Source: Shewanella sediminis HAW-EB3
GTDB lineage: Bacteria; Pseudomonadota; Gammaproteobacteria; Enterobacterales; Shewanellaceae
NCBI RefSeq assembly: GCF_000018025.1
Contig: NC_009831.1
Span: 4,340,001-4,404,000 of the forward strand
Reading direction: 5' to 3'
DNA: 64,000 bases
Part shown: positions 4,938 through 16,272 of the stretch, piece after piece
How the letters are laid out: each line of letters opens with the position of its first letter
Position numbering within the stretch: the first letter of the stretch is position 1
The notes under the pieces: generated by a model
The model's database searches: none
Seen by the model: only the letters and a program-made list of their open reading frames with translations
Told to the model about the DNA's origin: nothing
Program-made: the position numbers and the translations under genes

Positions 4938-5918
4938 ATGCATAATCTAAAACTCGATACTTTAGATCTACTCAGCATTAATATTCTGGTTAATTTATAT
5001 GAGCATCACTCTGCCACATTTGTGGCTAAACAGATGAATATTCCTGCACCAAAAATTAGCCGTAGCCTACAGCATTCCAGAGTTATTTTTAATAACCCAC
5101 TCTTTATCAGAAAAAAACATGGCTTAATTCCCAATGAATTTACCAAACAGCTCTACCCCATCGCTAAGGAAATAGTGCAATGCTCTGAGCACCTGTACCA
5201 ACTCAATGTCGACGACAGTTCTGGTGAGAGATCCCATTTCACCATTCATGTCAGCGATCTTATCGTTCATCAATTTCCACAACTATTGAAGAACGCCGTC
5301 AAAGAGAGCCATCTGGATCTTAAGTTCACTATCAGCCCCGATTCCGACAACCTAATCACGGATATTATTGAGAATCGAATCGATATCGGGTTAATCAGCG
5401 AGTCCGGAAGTGACTACCTGGGGGAGATCGATAACCATGTCGACGTCGTGGCACTGAAACGGCTATCTCACCTCTATCTGGTGTGTGATCTTCACCATCC
5501 CCTGTTAAAGCAGGAGATCACCTTAGAGTCCATCGCACAATATCCCTTTGTGAGCATTCTGGGCAAACCCGAGCGCGCAACATCGGATCCATTTTTACTC
5601 TACTGCAGCCAGCACCAGCTTGCATATCACCTGAAGAACGGAGATCTGATTAATCATAACTTCAATATTGAGACGCTCAACCAACATATAACCGATACCG
5701 ATGCAGTCGCACTGCTGCCTTTCAGCAAAATCTATGATCATAGTAATCAGATGCCGAACTTACATGTTTGTCGATTATCAGAGATAGAAACCGAGCGGCT
5801 CTACCTATCAATTAACAGTCCGACCCTATACTTAGTCACTAAGAAAGGGCACCTATCGTCTAATGCCGCCTGGCTGGTTGAAACCATCGGGCAAATCGTC
5901 AATCGCAGCATCCATTAA
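4938..5918 (+). CDS. LysR-family transcriptional regulator
   Basis: The 326-residue product has an N-terminal winged helix-turn-helix (ATFVAKQMNIPAPKISRSLQ, residues about 26-45) followed by PLFIRKKHG, then a LysR-type co-inducer-binding domain. AGGAGG precedes the ATG. It belongs to the same atypical subgroup as the genes at 5961, 37318 and 38291, all lying beside multiheme electron-transfer genes, so control of respiration is a reasonable inference. Ligand and targets are unknown. Confidence 0.88.
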   Translation: MHNLKLDTLDLLSINILVNLYEHHSATFVAKQMNIPAPKISRSLQHSRVIFNNPLFIRKKHGLIPNEFTKQLYPIAKEIVQCSEHLYQLNVDDSSGERSHFTIHVSDLIVHQFPQLLKNAVKESHLDLKFTISPDSDNLITDIIENRIDIGLISESGSDYLGEIDNHVDVVALKRLSHLYLVCDLHHPLLKQEITLESIAQYPFVSILGKPERATSDPFLLYCSQHQLAYHLKNGDLINHNFNIETLNQHITDTDAVALLPFSKIYDHSNQMPNLHVCRLSEIETERLYLSINSPTLYLVTKKGHLSSNAAWLVETIGQIVNRSIH

Positions 5919-5960
5919 CTCGGGGCCTGATTAAAACCAATATCTTAATCAACAAGGGGC

Positions 5961-6959
5961 TCAAAAGAGCACACTTAAACCTGGTTTAGCTATCGTAGGG
6001 GGCAGTCCCTGTGAGCTCTCATAGTGATGTTGAATATCGACTAACTTTTCGGTCAGTAACCTCGCCATACATTGTGCCAGCAAAGGGGTCACCGAGCGAT
6101 GACAGTGCAGGAAATAACTCTCGGGCTGTTGCTCTATAGCGTCTCGCCATTGCGACGATACATCGACAAAATCGACATCTTCTCTGCCTTCGAAATACTC
6201 ATAGGCCATGGCGGAACTCAACACACAGATATCGTCAGATTTACTGGCATGATCGACGACCATGCGCAGACTCGGGCTCTTAAGTGCAACCCGAAGTTTT
6301 ATCCCCTGCTCATGGGCATACTCTTCGATTCTATGCAGGCGGTTGTTCTGAAGGTTTGAATTTACCAGACCAATTTTATAATCAAAGATATCGGTCAGAG
6401 GATCGGCTGAGGTCAGAATAGGGTGACCGACTCTGGCGACCAGAAAAAAATGGGTAATATCGCCGATATTCACATCATCAACCATCTCATGCCTGATGGG
6501 TTCGATGGATATACTGCAGTCAATTTTCCCCTGACACAGACGCTCGCTCACGTTTTCTGACCAGGGTTGCACATTCACATTGACCCCCCCCTCCACACAG
6601 CAACATTGGTGAGTCACACAGTTAAACACCATCATCGACCACTGTTCATGGGCGGCCACCGTCAACTCATAGGGTGCCACTACAGTATTACGTGTCGCCG
6701 ATATCATCTTATCGTATTGTTCAAGAATAGTTTGAGCCATGGGGTAGATACGCAGTGCAACAGAGTTAGGCTCAAACCCATACTTTTGACGAATAAAAAG
6801 CTCATCATCCAACACTTCACGTAAACAGTTCAGTGCCCTGCTCACTTTAGATTGAGTCGTATGTAATCTATCGGCGACGGCGGAGCCATTTTTCAACTCG
6901 ACTAAGCCGGCTAACACCATCAAAGTGAAATAATCCAGACGGTTCACCTTCTTCAACAT
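5961..6959 (-). CDS. LysR-family transcriptional regulator
   Basis: The 332-residue LysR protein has the HTH segment SAVADRLHTTQSKVSRALN, then ELFIRQKYGFEPNS, as in the neighbouring LysR at 4938. The effector domain contains an unusual CVTHQCCCVEGG Cys cluster that could sense redox state or metal, which is inference only. GGAGAG precedes the ATG. The gene converges with the other LysR and its promoter side holds a perfect CRP box at 7125-7140. Confidence 0.87.
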   Translation of the reverse strand: MLKKVNRLDYFTLMVLAGLVELKNGSAVADRLHTTQSKVSRALNCLREVLDDELFIRQKYGFEPNSVALRIYPMAQTILEQYDKMISATRNTVVAPYELTVAAHEQWSMMVFNCVTHQCCCVEGGVNVNVQPWSENVSERLCQGKIDCSISIEPIRHEMVDDVNIGDITHFFLVARVGHPILTSADPLTDIFDYKIGLVNSNLQNNRLHRIEEYAHEQGIKLRVALKSPSLRMVVDHASKSDDICVLSSAMAYEYFEGREDVDFVDVSSQWRDAIEQQPESYFLHCHRSVTPLLAQCMARLLTEKLVDIQHHYESSQGLPPTIAKPGLSVLF

Positions 6960-7418: not shown

Positions 7419-8963
7419 ATGGCCGGTCAGATAAAAGCACGTACCCTCAAAGTCCCCATCACCAACGTCTACGCCAAGGGGGACTACTGCGCCCAACTAC
7501 GTCTGGGTAGTCAGGCACAGAGGGCCAACCTTATCCTGGACACGGGTAGCAGCACCCTTGTTGTAAAGCAAAGTGCAGTGAAACAAAATGTAGTGAATCA
7601 TAGTGTCGTGAACCAAAACGCCTACCACCCTCAGGATGATAACTTACTGACCGTCACCAGCTTGGCTCAAGAGGTCAACTACGGCATAGGTGGTTGGGAC
7701 GGCCCCGTGGTCACAACCCGGGTCGCTCTCTGTGAAGAGAGCTGCGAAGATGAGATGGCGTTCGATAAGCGCCTGCCACACCTTCACTTAGCCCGCCAAC
7801 CTCTGGTGCTCGACGCCTGCCCCCTAGCTATCGTCTCCAGTGTTAAACAGCAACAAACCTTTGGTGATGCCGATGGCATATTGGGGCTGGGCTACCATCA
7901 CCTCAACAGGAGCTACGATCTTAAAGCCTATCTCGAAAGCCATCAATATTCACCGGCGGTAACCTATCCCTGGCCCTTCGCCGATGCTATCAGCCTGAGC
8001 GATACTAAGGGCAAGAGTGACTGCCAGAGCACGATTAATAATGAGAGTAAGCGTCAGAGCGATACTAAAGCTAAGAGTAAAACTGACAACAAGAACAAAA
8101 AGAAAACAGAACTCCCTTTCAGCAGCGAAGACCTTAAACAGTTTAAGCAGTTTCTCTGGCAGCAGCCGGAGCAGGATCTCATCCCCTACTTCACCGCCCT
8201 CGAAGAGCATGGCCTCACCGCGAATAAATTTGCCTTCTATAGCCGGCGCTCCAGCATCCACGTCACCAACGGCGACTTGTCACCTCAGCAGCTGGCCAAT
8301 GATCCGCTCAACCGGGGCTGGCTTATCCTCGGCGGAGGAGAGGAGCATACGGAGCTCTACCAGGGAGACTTTCACACCATCAGAGTCGACCACGACATCT
8401 ATTACAATGTCACACTCACCTCGATACGCGTCGGCGACCAGCCACCAATCCCCGCTCCGGCGCTCGATGAAAAGTACCGCAAAAACTACTACAGCAATGC
8501 CATCGTCGATACCGGCGCCTCGGCCATCGCCCTTACCGAGCCCCTCTATCGAGCCCTGCTAAAGAGCTTAGCAGCCATATCGCCAAAGTTTGTTCCCTTG
8601 ATAGCCCCCTTTAAAGAGATATCCGCCCAGGAGAGAGGCATAGATGCATCGCTCCTGGACCTGAGCCAATGGCCGGATATCACCTTCACCTTCCTGGGCG
8701 ATATGGATGGCGATTTGGATGAGAATAAAGCTGCCGGCACACAGAACTCCGACCGACAAGCCGTGAGCATAGTCTGCAGACCCGAAAGCTACTGGCAGCT
8801 CAACGCACCGGGTGAAGGCAAGGCCTGCTTTAAGCTCTTGAGTCAACTTCCCAACTGGCCCAATCAAACCCTCTTAGGCCTCCCCCTGCTCAACGACCAC
8901 CTGGTCATATTCGACCGCTCAGTACATAAAACCGGTGTGATCCGATTCGCTAAGCAAAAATAG
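7419..8963 (+). CDS. Pepsin-like aspartic protease (shewasin-type, family A1)
   Basis: The 514-residue protein has both catalytic motifs of bilobal pepsins: DTGSS at residues 41-45 and DTGAS at 364-368, plus a flap-like NYGIGGWDG. Family A1 is mainly eukaryotic; a few bacterial members, the shewasins, are known from Shewanella and relatives and act in the cytoplasm. No signal peptide or propeptide is visible here, in line with a cytosolic enzyme. A Lys/Ser-rich hydrophilic insert (around residues 192-228) separates the lobes. It has its own promoter region and is followed closely by a GNAT gene. The natural substrate is unknown. Confidence 0.9.
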   Translation: MAGQIKARTLKVPITNVYAKGDYCAQLRLGSQAQRANLILDTGSSTLVVKQSAVKQNVVNHSVVNQNAYHPQDDNLLTVTSLAQEVNYGIGGWDGPVVTTRVALCEESCEDEMAFDKRLPHLHLARQPLVLDACPLAIVSSVKQQQTFGDADGILGLGYHHLNRSYDLKAYLESHQYSPAVTYPWPFADAISLSDTKGKSDCQSTINNESKRQSDTKAKSKTDNKNKKKTELPFSSEDLKQFKQFLWQQPEQDLIPYFTALEEHGLTANKFAFYSRRSSIHVTNGDLSPQQLANDPLNRGWLILGGGEEHTELYQGDFHTIRVDHDIYYNVTLTSIRVGDQPPIPAPALDEKYRKNYYSNAIVDTGASAIALTEPLYRALLKSLAAISPKFVPLIAPFKEISAQERGIDASLLDLSQWPDITFTFLGDMDGDLDENKAAGTQNSDRQAVSIVCRPESYWQLNAPGEGKACFKLLSQLPNWPNQTLLGLPLLNDHLVIFDRSVHKTGVIRFAKQK

Positions 8964-8981
8964 TCATCATTGGAGATAAAA

Positions 8982-9569
8982 GTGGAACAACTCATCAGTA
9001 AGCAGTCCAGAATTGAAAGCATAAAAAACTCCCATGTATTTACCACCGAGCGCCTGCTTATCAGACCGATAGAGCCCCGGGACAAGTTACTTTTTCGTCA
9101 GTTATATACCGACAAAAAAATCATGCGTAACATAGCCGAGCCGATGACAATCGAGCAGGCTGACCGCGCCTTTGAGACTTCGTTAAGCAACACAAAAAAA
9201 GTAAACCCCACACAGATGAGCTGGGTGATCACATCTCGAGATGATGAACAAGCGATAGGGATAGAGGGATTGGTCTGGCATGGCGAAGACAGGTCTCAGG
9301 CAGAGATTGGAATTATGTTGCTGCGTAAAGCCAATGGAAAGTTGCTCCCCGAAGAAGCCATGGGGGCATTGATGGAATACGCCTATAGCAAATTAGAGAT
9401 AGTTCGTATTAATGCCCAATTTTCAGGCCGCAATCTGGCTACTGAGCGCTTCGTAAAAAAGCTGGGATTCGTCTTCGAAACACCATTAATCTCAACCGAA
9501 TGTATCGGGAAGCCGAGTAAAAGTTTCGATAAACACTGCTTCGCCGAAAAGAATCACTACAAGCTCTGA
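8982..9569 (+). CDS. GNAT-family N-acetyltransferase
   Basis: The protein shows a RimJ/RimL-type GNAT layout: TERLLIRPIEPRDKLLFRQL at the start, a central GIEGLVWHGEDRSQAEIGIM, and the C-terminal RNLATERFVKKLGFVFE, which covers the acetyl-CoA region. GGAG at 8972-8975 fits the GTG at 8982 better than the TTG at 8970 that overlaps it. It starts 18 bases after the pepsin-like gene and could be co-transcribed with it. The substrate is not known. Confidence 0.8.
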   Translation: MEQLISKQSRIESIKNSHVFTTERLLIRPIEPRDKLLFRQLYTDKKIMRNIAEPMTIEQADRAFETSLSNTKKVNPTQMSWVITSRDDEQAIGIEGLVWHGEDRSQAEIGIMLLRKANGKLLPEEAMGALMEYAYSKLEIVRINAQFSGRNLATERFVKKLGFVFETPLISTECIGKPSKSFDKHCFAEKNHYKL

Positions 9570-9677
9570 AATCAAACTCAGGCCCCCGCGCACACTAAGC
9601 CAGTTAACACTTTCAAAACAAGCTGATAACTGGTAGTTTGATTAAAAAATAACAAGATGCATAAAAGGAATTTTTCA

Positions 9678-10499
9678 ATGGTGGGTAGTTTGGCTTGTGT
9701 CGGTATAGGCATGACTCTGGGGGCACATATCTGCCCCCTGGCTAAGAGCTATATCGAGCAGGCCGATGTGGTCTTCTCCGGCGTCTCCAATGGCATAGTC
9801 GAACTCTGGCTGCAGGAGATGCATAGTGACGTACGCTCCCTGCAGGTCTACTACAGCGAAGGCAAGTCCCGCCATATCACCTACCGCGAGATGGTCGATG
9901 CCATGCTGAGTGAGGTACGCGCCGGCAAGAAGGTGGTCGGTGCATTTTACGGACACCCCGGCGTATTCGCCCATGCGCCGCACAAATCGATAGAACTCGC
10001 CAAGGCCGAAGGCTTCGATGCCGTCATGGTGCCGGGCATATCTGCAGAAGATTGCCTGATTGCCGACTTAGGCATAGATCCCGGCAAGTTCGGCTGTCAG
10101 CAGTTCGAAGCCAGCCAGTTCATGTTTTACAAGCGCCGCTTCGACCCCTCCTGCTATCTGGTGCTGTGGCAGATAGGCCTGGCAGGCGATAAGAGTATGG
10201 CCAAGTTTGCCACAGGCGCCGCCCACCGGCAGGTGTTGATAGAACTGCTCACCGAGCAGTATCCGCTGGATCATGAGGTTATCTTATATGAGGCCGCCGT
10301 ACTCCCCATAGACACGGTGCGCAAGCAGACACTGACACTGAGCGAGTTGGCCGAGGCCGAGATATTTATGCACACCACATTGGTGATACCGCCGAGCCAA
10401 AAGATGCAGCCCAACCATGAAGTGCAGGAGAGGCTGAAGCAAATTGAGGAAGAAGCTGAGCAAGAGCTAAGAAAGCAGCGAGTTGCGAGTCTCGAGTAA
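9678..10499 (+). CDS. sonM: Split borosin peptide backbone N-methyltransferase (SonM-like)
   Basis: This is a tetrapyrrole-methylase-fold SAM enzyme of about 273 residues. It has MVGSLACVGIGMTLGAHI at the start, YGHPGVFA, VPGISAEDCLIADLGIDPG and FEASQFMF, as in SonM of Shewanella oneidensis, which methylates backbone amides of a separate precursor. Fungal borosins fuse enzyme and precursor; here the enzyme ends without a core peptide and the precursor is the next gene. AAGGA lies 8 bases before the ATG at 9678, which is preferred over 9657. The C-terminus is Glu/Gln-rich and probably coiled. Stand-alone CobA/CysG-type pathways are not nearby, which argues against cobalamin synthesis. Confidence 0.88.
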   Translation: MVGSLACVGIGMTLGAHICPLAKSYIEQADVVFSGVSNGIVELWLQEMHSDVRSLQVYYSEGKSRHITYREMVDAMLSEVRAGKKVVGAFYGHPGVFAHAPHKSIELAKAEGFDAVMVPGISAEDCLIADLGIDPGKFGCQQFEASQFMFYKRRFDPSCYLVLWQIGLAGDKSMAKFATGAAHRQVLIELLTEQYPLDHEVILYEAAVLPIDTVRKQTLTLSELAEAEIFMHTTLVIPPSQKMQPNHEVQERLKQIEEEAEQELRKQRVASLE

Positions 10500-10510
10500 C
10501 GAAAAGCCAG

Positions 10511-10531
10511 ATGCTGAAACATGTTCAGCAT
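10511..10531. other. Hairpin after the methyltransferase gene
   Basis: An 8-bp perfect inverted repeat (10511-10518 with 10524-10531) lies just past the stop codon. No T-tract follows on the plus strand, so it may not stop transcription before the precursor gene. Confidence 0.4.
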
Positions 10532-10598
10532 GACGGTTCAGCGCACCAAATTGTAGGACCGGCTTTAGCCGGGAAAGATGGAACGAACAAGCCATCGC

Positions 10599-10680
10599 AG
10601 CTACGAGCTCCTACATAAGAGCTCGTAGCTCATAGCTCGTAGCTCGTAGCTCGTAGCTCGTAGCTCGTAGCTCGTAGCTA
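10599..10680. repeat. Inverted repeat plus eight 7-bp tandem repeats upstream of the borosin precursor
   Basis: A perfect 12-bp inverted repeat (10599-10610 with 10619-10630, loop of 8) runs directly into eight tandem copies of GCTCGTA (10621-10676, the second copy GCTCATA). The array ends about 30 bases before the precursor ATG, so it sits in its promoter or 5' leader. Related CTACGAG/CTCGTAG words recur in other intergenic spacers of this window (for example 49000-49200). Confidence 0.85.
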
Positions 10681-10710
10681 AAAATCTTACAACAATAAGG
10701 AAGAGAAAGC

Positions 10711-11019
10711 ATGTCAAATGTGATTGAACTACTGGAACGTATGGGGCAGGACGCTAGCTTACAGAGTACTGAAGAGCAATGTATAGCCATCAAAAGTAGC
10801 GGTTTGGAAGAAAGCATTAAGGAACCACTTCTTAAAAAGGACTTAATAAAGTTAAAGAAAGAATTAGATATTTGTCCTGATGTAGTTTGTATCTTCTTCC
10901 CTGCAGAGGATGAACCAGAAAAAGATTCACCAGAAAAAGATTCACCAGAAAAAGATTCACCAGAAAAAGAATCGCCAAAAGAAGACGAATCTGAAATAAA
11001 ATCTGTAGCTAATGGTTAA
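10711..11019 (+). CDS. sonA: Borosin-type RiPP precursor peptide (SonA-like)
   Basis: The 102-residue product opens with MSNVIELLERMGQDASL, matching the LGQDA-type start of SonA, followed by a helical borosin-binding-like region to about residue 50. The hydrophobic segment VVCIFF (residues 58-63) followed by Pro is where SonA carries its methylated core, so backbone N-methylation there is predicted. After it comes an acidic tail with three PEKDS units and one PEKES unit (15-bp DNA repeats near 10915-10974), then a Lys/Glu-rich end. AAGGAAGAG precedes the ATG. The tail repeat is not part of SonA as I recall it. It overlaps the next gene by 8 bases. Confidence 0.82.
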   Translation: MSNVIELLERMGQDASLQSTEEQCIAIKSSGLEESIKEPLLKKDLIKLKKELDICPDVVCIFFPAEDEPEKDSPEKDSPEKDSPEKESPKEDESEIKSVANG

Positions 11020-12844
11020 TTTGTTCTCCAAACGACTTAAAAGAGGTAGAATTTTTTGCCTCTTTTTGATGCTTATTGTCCATAACTCTTGGTCAGCACA
11101 GATAGAGGGGACCCAAAGCCTATTTAACCAAGCCGAACAAATCCGTAGTAGTGACCCAGTACAATTCATCACAATCATTAAAAAACTAAAACAAAGAGAA
11201 GAACTTTTAACTAAAGAACAATCTCACCATCTAAAATATTTAATTGGCTACAGCTTATCTTTCCAAGGAAAGTTTGATGAGGCATTAACGATCTACAAAA
11301 ATATTTTAAGCTCTAATGCACAAACGACATTAAAATTGAAAGCTAATTTATCAATAGTAAATACATACGCAATATCAAAACAATGGCCAGAAGGCCTTTA
11401 CTACCTCTCTGACACTTTAAATACTCTACCGAAAATCTCAGATGATTTACTTATTCAGCGAAGTTATGCCGTTGCTGCAATATTTTACAACCAACTAGGC
11501 CAGTACGAACTTGGTTTGAGTTTTGCGGACAAACTTCTACAAGAGTCTATTGAAGGTCGAACACTCTGTATCGCCCATAACCTGAAATTAGAGTCACTCT
11601 TTAAACTCAAGCTCTTAGAAGAAAATGACCCGCAGATCCGGGAAGGTATCGAGGCCTGCCAACAAAATAACGAAGTGGTGATGGTGAGCGCCATTTATAG
11701 CTATTTAGCGACCCTCTATCTGCAACAAAATAATCCTCATCAGGCAATATCCATACTCGAGTCGAATTTCGATTCTCTGAAAACGACAAAGTATGTTCCA
11801 TATTTAGCTATTTTTAATTCTCTTCTATCTCAAGCGCACCATGAGGTTGGCAGCAATGAACAAGCAGAAGAGTATGCATTAGTTGCAATCGATGAAGCTA
11901 AAAACATCAATATTAGTAACTCCTCTGTCAATGCCTACAGGGTTCTCTACCAGATAGCCGAGTCCCGTGGCGATCATCAAATGGCGCTGCAATATCACAA
12001 GCAGTATGCCGAGGCGGATAAGGCCTACCTCGATGATATCAAGACCAAACATCTGGCGTTTCAGCTGGCCCAGCATCAGGCCGCGGAGCAGAAAAGCCGT
12101 ATCGGACTGCTGGATAAACAGAATAACCTGCTCAAGATAGAGCAGAAACTGGCCAGGAGTGAGGCGGAGAATAACCGCCTGTTTATAGCCCTGCTTATCG
12201 CGATTATCACCCTGCTCAGCTTCTGGGGCTATAAGTCCTGGATGACACAGAAGCGCCTTAAACAGTTGGCCGAGTTCGACGCCCTCACGGGGGTATTTAA
12301 CCGGGGTCACTTCACTCAGCTGGCTCAGAGTGCCCTGCAGTATTGTGAGAACAGCGATATCTACCTTAGCTGTATCCTGTTCGACCTGGACAAGTTTAAA
12401 ACCATCAACGACTCCTACGGTCACGCTTGTGGGGATTGGGTGTTGAAGCGGGTGGCAGATGTTTGTAAGGTGCAGGGCAGAAGCAATGATATCTTTGCGC
12501 GTCTGGGCGGCGAGGAGTTCTGTATCTTGCTGCCGGGCTGCGATCTGTTGACGGCGACCAGGCTGGCCGAGACCTGCCGCAAAGCGATAGCGCAGCTCGA
12601 TACCTCAGATTCCGGCGCAGAGTTTATTATCACCGCCAGCTTCGGCGTCACAGATGCTAAGCTATCGGGCTATGATCTCGAAAAGATCACCGCCGATGCG
12701 GATATGGCCATGTACCAGTCGAAACATGATGGCCGCAACCGTACCACAGTCTTCGGTCGCGCCCTTGCTATTGATAATAGTGAAGGGAATGCTGGCGGGA
12801 ATGATGATGTGAGCGAAAACCGTCAGGGTCACCTGACGCTTTAA
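11012..12844 (+). CDS. TPR-domain membrane diguanylate cyclase (GGDEF)
   Basis: The 610-residue protein has a signal sequence (IFCLFLMLIVHNSWSAQ), a periplasmic region of TPR-like helices to about residue 380, a membrane segment (RLFIALLIAIITLLSFWGY), and a GGDEF domain with GGEEF at 499-503 and the FDLDKFKTINDSYGH substrate loop. The active-site motif is intact, so c-di-GMP synthesis is expected. The ATG lies inside the end of the precursor gene and only a weak ribosome site is visible, so translation is probably coupled to the precursor. The first half is AT-rich while the part after about 11,930 has higher GC, suggesting a mosaic gene. Confidence 0.88.
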   Translation: MVNLFSKRLKRGRIFCLFLMLIVHNSWSAQIEGTQSLFNQAEQIRSSDPVQFITIIKKLKQREELLTKEQSHHLKYLIGYSLSFQGKFDEALTIYKNILSSNAQTTLKLKANLSIVNTYAISKQWPEGLYYLSDTLNTLPKISDDLLIQRSYAVAAIFYNQLGQYELGLSFADKLLQESIEGRTLCIAHNLKLESLFKLKLLEENDPQIREGIEACQQNNEVVMVSAIYSYLATLYLQQNNPHQAISILESNFDSLKTTKYVPYLAIFNSLLSQAHHEVGSNEQAEEYALVAIDEAKNINISNSSVNAYRVLYQIAESRGDHQMALQYHKQYAEADKAYLDDIKTKHLAFQLAQHQAAEQKSRIGLLDKQNNLLKIEQKLARSEAENNRLFIALLIAIITLLSFWGYKSWMTQKRLKQLAEFDALTGVFNRGHFTQLAQSALQYCENSDIYLSCILFDLDKFKTINDSYGHACGDWVLKRVADVCKVQGRSNDIFARLGGEEFCILLPGCDLLTATRLAETCRKAIAQLDTSDSGAEFIITASFGVTDAKLSGYDLEKITADADMAMYQSKHDGRNRTTVFGRALAIDNSEGNAGGNDDVSENRQGHLTL

Positions 12845-13809: not shown

Positions 13810-16272
13810 GTGTTTCAGCAATATATCCGTCAATGCAATCAAGAGGTCCACAAGACCCTCAATGCCGCTATCGCAGAACTGGCAAACGCCCATCAGAATG
13901 TACTGACCCCTGAGCATATCCTGCTTGGCTTACTATCACTTCCGGGCTCTGAAGCAGCTCAGCTACTACAACAGATATTGCCCGATCCCGAGAAGAGTAT
14001 CGAAGCCCTGACCCGGGCCGTGTATCACGATCATGAAAATACTCCTCTGAAGGGCGATACCACTCAGGTGGTCGCCGCACAGGAAGTCGAAGAGATTTTC
14101 GGCATAGCCCTTAGTGAAGCCAAACGACTCGGCGATGCTTACATAGGTACGGGCAGCCTGTTACTGGCCCTGTGCGATAAGAGGGCCGGCGTCACCGCCA
14201 TTCACCTGAATAATCAGGGGATCAAGGTGGGCCCGGCTCGTGAGGCGCTGGTAAAACTGAGAAGTGGCAAAACCTTAGACACGCCCGATGCCGAGGGCCG
14301 CAGCGATCCCTTAGATGAATATACCCAAGATTTAACAGAGATGGCCCGTAATAACCAACTCGACCCGGTTATTGGCAGAGAGGATGAGATAGGACGAGTC
14401 ATTCAAACCCTATCCAGACGTAAGAAGAATAATCCGGTACTTATAGGTGAGCCCGGTGTAGGTAAAACCGTGATAGTCGAGGGGTTAGCCCAGCGTATCG
14501 CCAATGCTGAGGTGCCCGATACCCTGCGTGATAAACGCCTGCTCTCATTAGATCTCGCCGAGCTGGTCGCCGGGGCCAATATGCGCGGAGAATTTGAGGA
14601 GCGTCTCAAGGGGGTCAGGGATGCGGTGATAGAGGCAAAGGGGCAGATCATTCTCTTCATCGATGAACTGCATACCGTGGTGGGTGCCGGCGCCGGCGCT
14701 GGCGGACTGGATGCCCCCGCCCTGTTAAAGAGTGCGCTGGGACGAGGAACACTACAGCTGATAGGTGCAGATACACTCGATGAATACCACAGATATGTCG
14801 AGGCAGATAAAGCTCTGGAGCGGCGTTTTCAACCCATCTTAGTGCGCGAGCCCAGCATAGAGGAGACCATAGATATCCTCAATGGCTTGGCTGGAAAATA
14901 TGAGGGCCACCATGATATAGAATACCAGCCGGAGGCGCTGGAGGCCGCGGCCAGACTGTCGGAGCGTTATATCGCGGACAGACACCTGCCGGATAAGGCA
15001 GTGGACCTTATCGATGAAGCCGGAGCCGATAGACACCTGCACCTGCTGGCGCTGTCGAGACCGATGAAGGAGCTTGAGCGCAAGCGTCAGGCACTGCTGT
15101 CAGGCAAGCAAAAAGCCTATAACGAGCAGGCCTTCGAACGTGTCGCCAACATGCAGACCGAGATCCTTAAATTAGAACAGCAGCTCTCGCTACAACGTGA
15201 ACAGCAAACCACCGATACCGCCAGTGAAGATAAGGCGGTCAACCCCGAAGATATCGCCCGAGTGGTCGCCCGCTTGACCGGGATCCCGGCCGCCCGCCTG
15301 GCCGAGTCTGAGGTAGAGAAGCTGTCTCATATGGAAGACATGCTACATAAGCGCATCATAGGTCAACAAGATGCCGTGTCTGCGGTGGCCAATGCCATTC
15401 GCCGTAACCGAACCGGTATCAATCGCAGTCATCGCCCCATCGGCTCCTTCCTGTTTCTCGGCCCGACCGGAGTAGGTAAAACCGAGCTGGCAAAGGCGCT
15501 GGCGGAGTTTATGCTCGATGATGAGAGCCGCATAGTACGACTGGATATGTCCGAATATATGGAGCGTCACGAGGTGTCCAAGATGATCGGGGCACCACCG
15601 GGCTATATCGGCTACGGTGAAGGGGGGCAGCTCACGGAAAAGGTCCGCCGTAATCCCTACACCATCATACTGCTGGACGAGATGGAGAAGGCGCATCCCG
15701 ATGTGTTTAACATGCTGTTGCAGATCTTAGAAGATGGCCGGCTCACCGACGCTCAGGGACGCACCATCTCGTTTCGTAACACCTTGCTGATAGGCACCTC
15801 GAACCTTGGGTCCGAGTCACTGATAAGCGACCGCACGCCGGTCGGGTTTATCTACAGCGAAGATCCGGACTATGAGGCAGCCCGTCGCACCGTAATGAAC
15901 GAGGTGAAGAAGTTCTTTAAACCCGAGTTTCTCAACCGACTCGATGAGGTGATCGTATTTCACTATCTGACTCAGGAGGATGTCCTCAAGATAGCCAAGT
16001 TGCTGATATCATCGCTGTGTAAACAGATGAAAGACAACGATATCACCCTGCATATCGACGCCGATGTGATAGAGCGGGTAGCTCAGGACGGCTTCGAGCC
16101 CGCCTACGGTGCCCGCCCGCTAAGGAGAGAGATAGAGAAGCAGATAGAGAATCCCATCGCCTCGCTTATCGTCAACAATAAAAATATTACCGGCAGTGAA
16201 ATTCACATCAGTCTACACCACAAGGGTAAGGCATTTAATTTCAGGATTGAAGCGGGAGAGGAGAGCGAGTAA
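13810..16272 (+). CDS. clpC: ClpC-type AAA+ unfoldase subunit
   Basis: The 820-residue protein has a Clp N-domain (two repeats, residues about 1-145), a first AAA domain with GEPGVGKT at 213-220, a short middle domain (about residues 400-490), and a second AAA domain with GPTGVGKT at 551-558 and [17 protein letters not shown]. The short middle domain and a VGF loop at 678-680, the position used for docking ClpP, point to ClpC rather than ClpB. ClpC is typical of Gram-positives and cyanobacteria, so it is unexpected here. The start is GTG with GGAG about 7 bases upstream. No MecA-like adaptor is adjacent. Confidence 0.85.

Follow-up and report, generated by a model that had tools for sequence, protein, structure and literature searches.

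A split borosin cluster of Shewanella sediminis with a pepsin homologue and a TPR-GGDEF protein that covaries with the precursor

The five-gene cluster and its borosin pair

We analyzed a 64,000-nt stretch of the single-contig genome (5,517,674 bases) of Shewanella sediminis HAW-EB3, here called the window, whose own positions serve as coordinates throughout. Five plus-strand genes follow one another in it: a pepsin-like protease (Ssed_3567), a GNAT acetyltransferase, a SonM-type backbone α-N-methyltransferase, a small precursor, and a TPR-membrane-GGDEF protein. A preliminary description of this DNA had proposed a split borosin locus, with methyltransferase and precursor in separate genes, at 9678–11019. 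Its coordinates stand and the family is right by sequence, as the two products match SonM and SonA, but this extent takes in two genes of five and the functional unit is larger. We regard the borosin identity of the locus as firm; judging from sequence, the methyltransferase and the small precursor probably give rise to a backbone-methylated peptide.

The enzyme has a match in 112 of 129 Shewanella-genus genomes (E ≤ 0.001), at odds with the earlier remark that split systems are few. S. sediminis itself carries a second, 53% identical locus at 1.672 Mb (L003), where genes for a SonM-like methyltransferase, a 72-aa SonA-like precursor, and a TPR-GGDEF protein of 608 aa are arranged alike. We refer to son-type loci such as this one as class A and to window-type loci as class B. 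We fetched 42 class B candidates (listed matches down to E = 6 × 10−97 and 56% identity) and 58 class A regions from a longer list, and parsed these 100 regions together with the window and L003. A precursor match adjoins the methyltransferase in all 102 loci of the genus, and in 97 (57 class A, 40 class B) the TPR-GGDEF protein reaches 500 aa or more; left out of the 97-locus counts were L072, cut by a contig end, L079, where no such protein was found, and L082, L136, and L143, where it is short or split. At most 30 nt separate the precursor stop from the GGDEF gene start in 85 of the 97. Methyltransferase matches, mostly weak, also occurred in 54 of 369 genomes of a class-level sample. Among eight distant loci outside Shewanella (L182–L189), a precursor match and a GGDEF-type protein were found in L182, L183, and L184; in the latter two the precursors are SonA-like and GGDEF proteins of 986–1082 aa lie nearby, possibly a different receptor architecture.

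The methyltransferase gene (9678–10499, + strand, 273 aa) is enclosed in an open reading frame of 280 codons (9657–10499), and a start at 9678 is likely because most of the listed relatives begin with MAGSLACVG or MSGSLACVG. The frame contains the motifs YGHPGVFA, GISAEDCL, and FEASQFMF, in which a SonM pattern had been recognized correctly: SonM was the top PDB match (phmmer, E = 6.5 × 10−78), followed by the fungal borosin enzymes (E = 5 × 10−49 to 1 × 10−45). SonM residues Y58, R67, Y71, Y93, F99, E146, and W166 (numbered, like the SonA sites L63 and I65, according to passages of PMC8429565) are kept in the window enzyme and in 97 of 97 loci, while Q178, a core contact in SonM, is kept neither in the window enzyme nor in most loci. 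The enzyme is thus a SonM/OphMA homologue with the published active-site residues, as expected of a split (type IV) borosin. Its Pfam superfamily, TP_methylase, would also suit a methylase, of tetrapyrroles or other substrates, that has nothing to do with the small gene. However, the NCBIfam tetrapyrrole-type models score far under their cut-off (best 45 bits vs 525), and with SonM first in the PDB, the SonM residues conserved, and a precursor match beside the enzyme at every parsed locus, we ruled out the tetrapyrrole reading and give this alternative practically no weight. The profile search that the preliminary description had named as able to refute it was thus run and did not refute it.

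The precursor gene (10711–11019, + strand) encodes 102 aa and overlaps the TPR-GGDEF gene by 8 nt. Its leader, the borosin binding domain (residues 1–51, 10711–10863), aligns by profile with SonA residues 1–52 and contains, near the N-terminus, the SonA-like start ERMGQDASL pointed out earlier. The predicted core LDICPDVVCIFFPAEDE (residues 52–68, 10864–10914) occupies a position comparable to SonA L63/I65, and the hydrophobic stretch that had been placed at residues 58–63 reads VVCIFF; C-terminal to the leader, it is the predicted methylation stretch. An acidic DSPEK tail follows, encoded by a 15-bp tandem repeat of 4.8 copies (10914–10985, + strand) that has two repeat units more than in L052 and L053. 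The precursor alone had no PDB match, and a profile of 24 precursor relatives gave seven PDB matches, all to SonA, at weak E values of 0.012–0.12. Aligning the 40 class B with the 57 class A precursors in hhalign gave a probability of 96.7% (E = 4.6 × 10−10), against 0.3% for a reversed decoy.

The core has a recognizable signature in pepsin-linked loci. Taking one precursor from each of 37 such loci, P64 is present in 37, A65 in 35, and C60 in 34, and residues 61–63 vary among hydrophobics. A strict CxxxP[AE][EDKRP] motif occurs in 33 of 46 pepsin-linked precursors from Shewanella and 11 of 14 from elsewhere, in none of 59 class A precursors, and in none of five precursors of pepsin-less class B loci. 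Acidic residues make up 39–42% of the last 25 positions in pepsin-linked precursors vs 14% in class A. Some loci hold several precursors: in L055, L056, L057, and L067 two stand in tandem, of which the first ends its core differently (VAHEE type) and the second adjoins the sensor gene, and L087 has three precursor matches.

Compared with the type IV system SonM/SonA of S. oneidensis MR-1, the window thus has the same enzyme family and key residues, a homologous leader, and the same order of methyltransferase, precursor, and TPR-GGDEF gene. It differs in its core CPDVVCIFFPAEDE, with a conserved Cys and Pro-Ala, in its acidic repeat tail, and in the pepsin and GNAT genes upstream, and its methyltransferase shares 53% identity with the SonM orthologue encoded in the same genome. 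The fungal borosins OphMA, dbOphMA, and MroMA share a homologous methyltransferase domain but carry enzyme, leader, and core in one polypeptide, whereas the window has separate genes.

The fifth gene (11012–12844, + strand) encodes a 610-aa TPR-membrane-GGDEF diguanylate cyclase (Pfam GGDEF, E = 2.9 × 10−41; TPR_12). An N-terminal TPR sensor part, which covaries with the precursor (approximately residues 1–310, 11012–11941), is followed by a transmembrane segment (residues 390–408, 12179–12235, hydropathy 2.01) and a GGDEF domain, the conserved part of the proposed receptor (residues 420–577, 12269–12742, Pfam). The window protein has GGEEF with an upstream RxxD (RSND) from residue 490. The GG(D/E)EF motif expected of an active cyclase is present by sequence here and in 92 of the 97 loci, the upstream RxxD in 70, and, by hydropathy, a membrane segment shortly before the GGDEF domain in 91. 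The sensor start, KRLKRGRIFCLFLMLIVHNSWSA, looks signal-peptide-like by eye. The TPR part resembles the TPR array of LGN (E approximately 4 × 10−5), a protein that binds linear peptides. Some borosin loci have two or three TPR-GGDEF genes, arranged in tandem or close by, namely L105, L123, L134, L135, L137, L139, and L202–L205.

Covariation of precursor and sensor part

We computed pairwise identities of methyltransferase (MT), precursor (PR), sensor part (TPR), and GGDEF part (DGC) for all locus pairs within a class. Given MT and DGC, the partial rank correlation between PR and TPR was 0.79 in class A (n = 57; reached by 0 of 999 permutations), 0.44 in the class B loci close to the window (n = 19; 0 of 999), and 0.27 in all class B (n = 40; 2 of 999), while that between PR and DGC was −0.14 in class A and −0.27 in the close class B set. 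Nearest neighbours by PR and by TPR agreed for 37 of 57 class A and 21 of 40 class B loci, those by PR and MT for 23 and 14, and those by PR and DGC for 24 and 12; core and TPR neighbours agreed for 33 of 57 class A loci. Within the precursor, the core showed negative partial correlations with MT (−0.25 in class A, −0.28 in class B), and the leader positive ones (0.42 and 0.50). Passages of PMC11285071 report that SahM, the enzyme of Shewanella sp. HN-41, tolerates different cores, so cores could diversify without a change of enzyme.

We also compared what we call mosaic pairs, in which MT is at least 88%, DGC at least 84%, and TPR at most 65% identical; pairs with TPR of at least 85% were termed concordant. 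Precursor identity was 38–86% in the 43 mosaic pairs (24 class A, 19 class B) and 91–100% in the 17 concordant pairs. In mosaic pairs the change point in the GGDEF protein fell at residues 155–367 (median 308), ahead of the membrane segment that begins at residue 390. Nine pairs were compared by DNA profile; the mosaic ones displayed a step and, apart from the repeat-filled gap, the concordant pairs window–L052 and L142–L144 displayed none. Similarity does not always extend into the flanks, where window–L054, L052–L054, and L058–L059 diverge in the GNAT region and L103–L115 downstream of the GGDEF gene. Median identities of leader, core, and TPR in mosaic pairs were 84%, 31%, and 48% in class A and 57%, 69%, and 60% in class B. 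L149, taken as the MR-1 locus on the strength of a precursor identical to SonA throughout the stretch compared, is 98% identical to L142 in MT, 95% in leader, and 90% in DGC, with 38% in core and 48% in TPR.

Quick trees of 20 class A loci, with groups named after the identities had been seen, gave a case of exchange. In the MT + DGC tree, L115 groups with L094–L097 and L103 (support 99.7), and grouping it with L099 is rejected (approximately unbiased (AU) test, 3 × 10−6). In the TPR tree it groups with L099 (99.9), and grouping with L094–L097/L103 is rejected (AU 5 × 10−43). L115 thus carries the MT and GGDEF part of one clade and the TPR part of another. The grouping of the MR-1 locus with L142 and L144 is mildly rejected by TPR (AU 0.027) and not by MT + DGC (0.365). 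As a control, we took 12 other diguanylate cyclases in the same two genome pairs, eight of which have a clear orthologue among the fetched loci (L234, L238, L242, and L246 in one pair; L229, L230, L239, and L244 in the other) and four of which do not (L233, L250, L236, and L247). The sensor parts of the eight are 76–96% identical (L246 over 39 residues only), against 54% at the window locus and 42% at the MR-1 locus for the borosin-linked ones; the son locus of S. sediminis is not mosaic in its pair, and its sensor part is 83% identical.

Pepsin-like protease and acetyltransferase

Ssed_3567 (7419–8963, + strand) is a pepsin-like aspartic protease of family A1 (Pfam Asp, E = 1.6 × 10−18), with two D-T/S-G lobes (D41TGS and D364TGA) and a start, MAGQIKARTLKVP, that by eye has no evident signal peptide. 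Its best PDB matches are the β-secretases 2 and 1 (E = 6 × 10−5 and weaker). Table 1 of PMC2761423 gives it as CP000821 4347419..4348963, which equals the window gene (our match in the genome spans 4347419–4348960), and Table 2 has the same D41 and D364 motif residues. Shewasins A and D belong to the same family. By coordinates, the two bacterial pepsins with published biochemistry head such clusters: shewasin A (Sama_0787, genome G008) heads cluster L088, shewasin D (Sden_0804, G024) heads L087, and Shew_2996 is the pepsin heading L066. According to passages of PMC4814920, shewasin D resides mainly in the cytosol, the preference of both shewasins is for Leu, Phe, or Tyr at P1 with a hydrophobic P2, and their function is left open. 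Passages of PMC2761423 and PMC4814920 assign the shewasins no function, whereas here such pepsins head a borosin cluster; neither main text mentions an operon, neighbours, or GGDEF, and one also lacks any mention of a methylase or acetyltransferase.

Within Shewanella the protease follows class B closely. Pepsin and GNAT genes precede the methyltransferase in 16 of 16 Shewanella-titled relatives (L004–L018 and L020) and in L019, a Pseudomonadota metagenome-assembled genome; L021 has the GNAT gene only and L022 neither. Across the 129 genomes, 42 have a class B methyltransferase, 40 a pepsin, and 39 both. G025, G030, and G127 have class B without pepsin, and G087 pepsin without class B, 612 bases from a contig end. 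The pepsin of G026 is a fragment, and no pepsin adjoins L090, a second class B locus in G024. At the G026 locus (L079), methyltransferase, GNAT, and two near-identical precursors remain beside the pepsin fragment, with no full TPR-GGDEF gene, and parts of this cluster seem to decay together.

We also examined an order-level sample of 394 genomes, 364 of them outside Shewanella (pepsin E ≤ 0.001, MT E ≤ 1 × 10−30). Outside the genus, all 29 genomes with a pepsin have a methyltransferase match, vs 39 of 335 without one, kinship being uncorrected in this comparison. We fetched the loci of 20 of the 29: 12 have all five genes, L212 lacks a GNAT gene between pepsin and methyltransferase, L211 ends within the methyltransferase, and six have no methyltransferase nearby, though each of their genomes has one elsewhere. 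In the remaining nine, coordinates place the two genes far apart or on different contigs. One pepsin without a nearby methyltransferase (L218) has a TPR-GGDEF gene approximately 1.9 kb off on the opposite strand.

The GNAT gene (8970–9569, + strand, start codon uncertain; Acetyltransf_3, Pfam E = 2.7 × 10−24) lies between protease and methyltransferase in relatives and possibly encodes an N-capping enzyme. Its product is 24–99% identical between near relatives whose methyltransferases are at least 92% identical. A test of it as a covarying member of the cluster gave no support, as it varies without following precursor or sensor.

A proposed peptide signal and its alternatives

The homologies, the conserved gene order, the precursor–sensor covariation, and the exchange in L115 are observed. 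Between otherwise similar loci the precursor and its TPR sensor differ jointly, with enzyme and GGDEF domain conserved, clearly in class A and more weakly in class B, and this is the pattern expected of a polymorphic signal–receptor pair. On balance we lean towards the reading that the window cluster produces, processes, and responds to a backbone-N-methylated peptide of its own, a polymorphic signal whose receptor would act on cyclic di-GMP (c-di-GMP). By analogy with SonM/SonA, the precursor leader would dock on the SonM-type enzyme, which would methylate amides of the hydrophobic core near residues 58–63. Gene linkage suggests that in class B the cytosolic pepsin-like protease may then take off the leader, the acidic tail, or both, and that the GNAT enzyme may cap the newly made peptide end; we put the chance that the pepsin homologue is the maturation protease at about even. 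The peptide would reach the periplasm by a route with no assigned gene in the cluster. There, as the covariation and the match to LGN suggest, it would bind the TPR domain of the adjoining membrane GGDEF protein and alter c-di-GMP synthesis.

More tentatively, and with rather less than even confidence, we extend this proposal to the split borosins of Shewanella and its relatives at large. These could be polymorphic backbone-N-methylated pheromones, each matched to a co-encoded TPR-diguanylate cyclase sensor, with signal and receptor exchanged as one cassette against a constant background of enzyme, leader, and GGDEF domain, and with bacterial pepsins as the maturation proteases of one branch. 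The agr and ComQXPA systems are polymorphic peptide quorum-sensing systems in which a variable signal and sensor part are co-encoded with a conserved output part. Unlike them, the window has a diguanylate cyclase as output, a TPR array as sensor, a modifying enzyme that is not variable, and no gene assigned to secretion. RRNPP receptors are cytoplasmic TPR peptide receptors, and the TPR domain proposed here to bind a peptide resembles them in this respect; it does not belong to a soluble cytoplasmic protein, since a membrane segment follows it in 91 of 97 proteins.

Several observations weigh against the proposal. Coupling is weaker in the window's own class, where the core is well conserved and core and TPR nearest neighbours agree in 13 of 40 loci only. 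Over all 40 class B loci the PR–DGC correlation (0.34) exceeds that of PR and TPR, so the coupling is not sensor-specific there, although it is among near relatives; in the close set TPR also follows MT (0.50). Locus pairs share ancestry, permutation leaves kinship in place, and mosaic pairs and test clades were picked after the identities had been seen. GNAT does not covary with precursor or sensor: r is −0.19 and −0.02 in the close set, and 0.07 and 0.09, with a weak 0.19 for the leader, in all 37 loci. A simple threshold test for an N-terminal hydrophobic segment is passed by 81 of 97 sensors and failed by the window's. No exporter is among the five cluster genes, and our search for a protease or exporter common to classes A and B, which found none, used nine window genes as queries and could miss an unrelated exporter. 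Five of the eight distant methyltransferase loci (L185–L189) have no precursor or TPR-GGDEF match by the models used, so the arrangement is not universal for SonM-like enzymes. As for the protease, no pepsin was found at the son-type loci compared, nor was GNAT seen there; outside the genus pepsin and methyltransferase are unlinked in 15 of 29 genomes (linked in 14), with 11 of the 15 under a single genus code (g278), and a second, unlinked pepsin occurs in G656 and G792, which are among the 14 linked genomes. The shewasins, although mainly cytosolic, were assayed at pH 3–4 according to passages of PMC4814920.

These points leave room for other explanations, of which an ordinary split borosin pair is unlikely but deserves serious thought. 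Here the cyclase would regulate production or answer an unrelated cue, and the covariation would come from a shared recombination block. Since precursor and TPR part are adjacent, exchange of one can carry the other along, and such hitchhiking would count against a signal–receptor pairing. The fastest-evolving segment need not be functional, and the GNAT enzyme is likewise variable without coupling, so variation alone is no proof of pairing. Yet the methyltransferase adjoins the precursor as well, and its correlation is negative with the core and positive with the leader; moreover, the 43 mosaic pairs break ahead of the membrane segment, and the ordinary cyclases compared show no such drop.

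A covarying core and partner, with allelic diversity between near relatives, would also fit a bacteriocin or defence peptide with its immunity protein, the variable TPR protein serving self-recognition or immunity. We consider this antagonistic pairing improbable, as the GGDEF domain at the end of the partner, with its motif intact in 92 and an upstream RxxD in 70 of 97 proteins, points to a signalling output. A TPR domain that takes the precursor or the leader as ligand, instead of the mature peptide, seems similarly improbable to us; a partner in export or assembly would be one example. Leader identity does follow TPR in the full class A (0.71, a further point against a signal–receptor pairing) and to a lesser degree in class B (0.18 in all, 0.20 in the close set), but without the NDLL-like types (class A, n = 44) core–TPR (0.39) is above leader–TPR (0.24) and the leader goes with MT (0.55). 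The position of the TPR part ahead of the membrane segment also speaks against this option.

If the signal–receptor proposal is right, the cluster offers a peptidase, a receptor, and an output for split borosins, and bacterial pepsins gain a role. Matched core and sensor pairs between near-identical loci, such as L149 vs L142, provide natural material for swaps. According to passages of PMC8429565, no final natural product had yet been linked to any type IV borosin pathway; PMC10885120 cites a later paper on a product, by Crone et al. Passages of PMC11395268 put the small number of known mature borosins down to a missing specific peptidase, and as a figure legend there explains the abbreviation GGDEF, the link of GGDEF genes to borosin clusters may already be in print. 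Our literature search, with the papers defining types V–X and that of Crone et al. outside its scope, found no precursor–sensor coupling and no pepsin–borosin link.

Scans for promoters and terminators yielded about as many matches as expected from shuffled sequence and were not used. Two adjacent LysR-type regulators on opposite strands (4938–6959) and, after the cluster, an 820-aa Clp-type ATPase (13810–16272; 95–97% identical in L004, L005, and L020) were named by look. We ruled out both as cluster parts: of 19 loci, each occurs only beside L004, L005, and L020, the ATPase additionally beside L052–L054 of the same genomes. The gap between methyltransferase and precursor, approximately 210 nt in the window vs approximately 110 in L052, holds a copy of a dispersed REP-like repeat (10551–10575, + strand; 48 genome copies at up to two mismatches, against 0 for a control pattern) and a tandem array of 8.6 copies of the heptamer AGCTCGT (10620–10679, no strand assigned).

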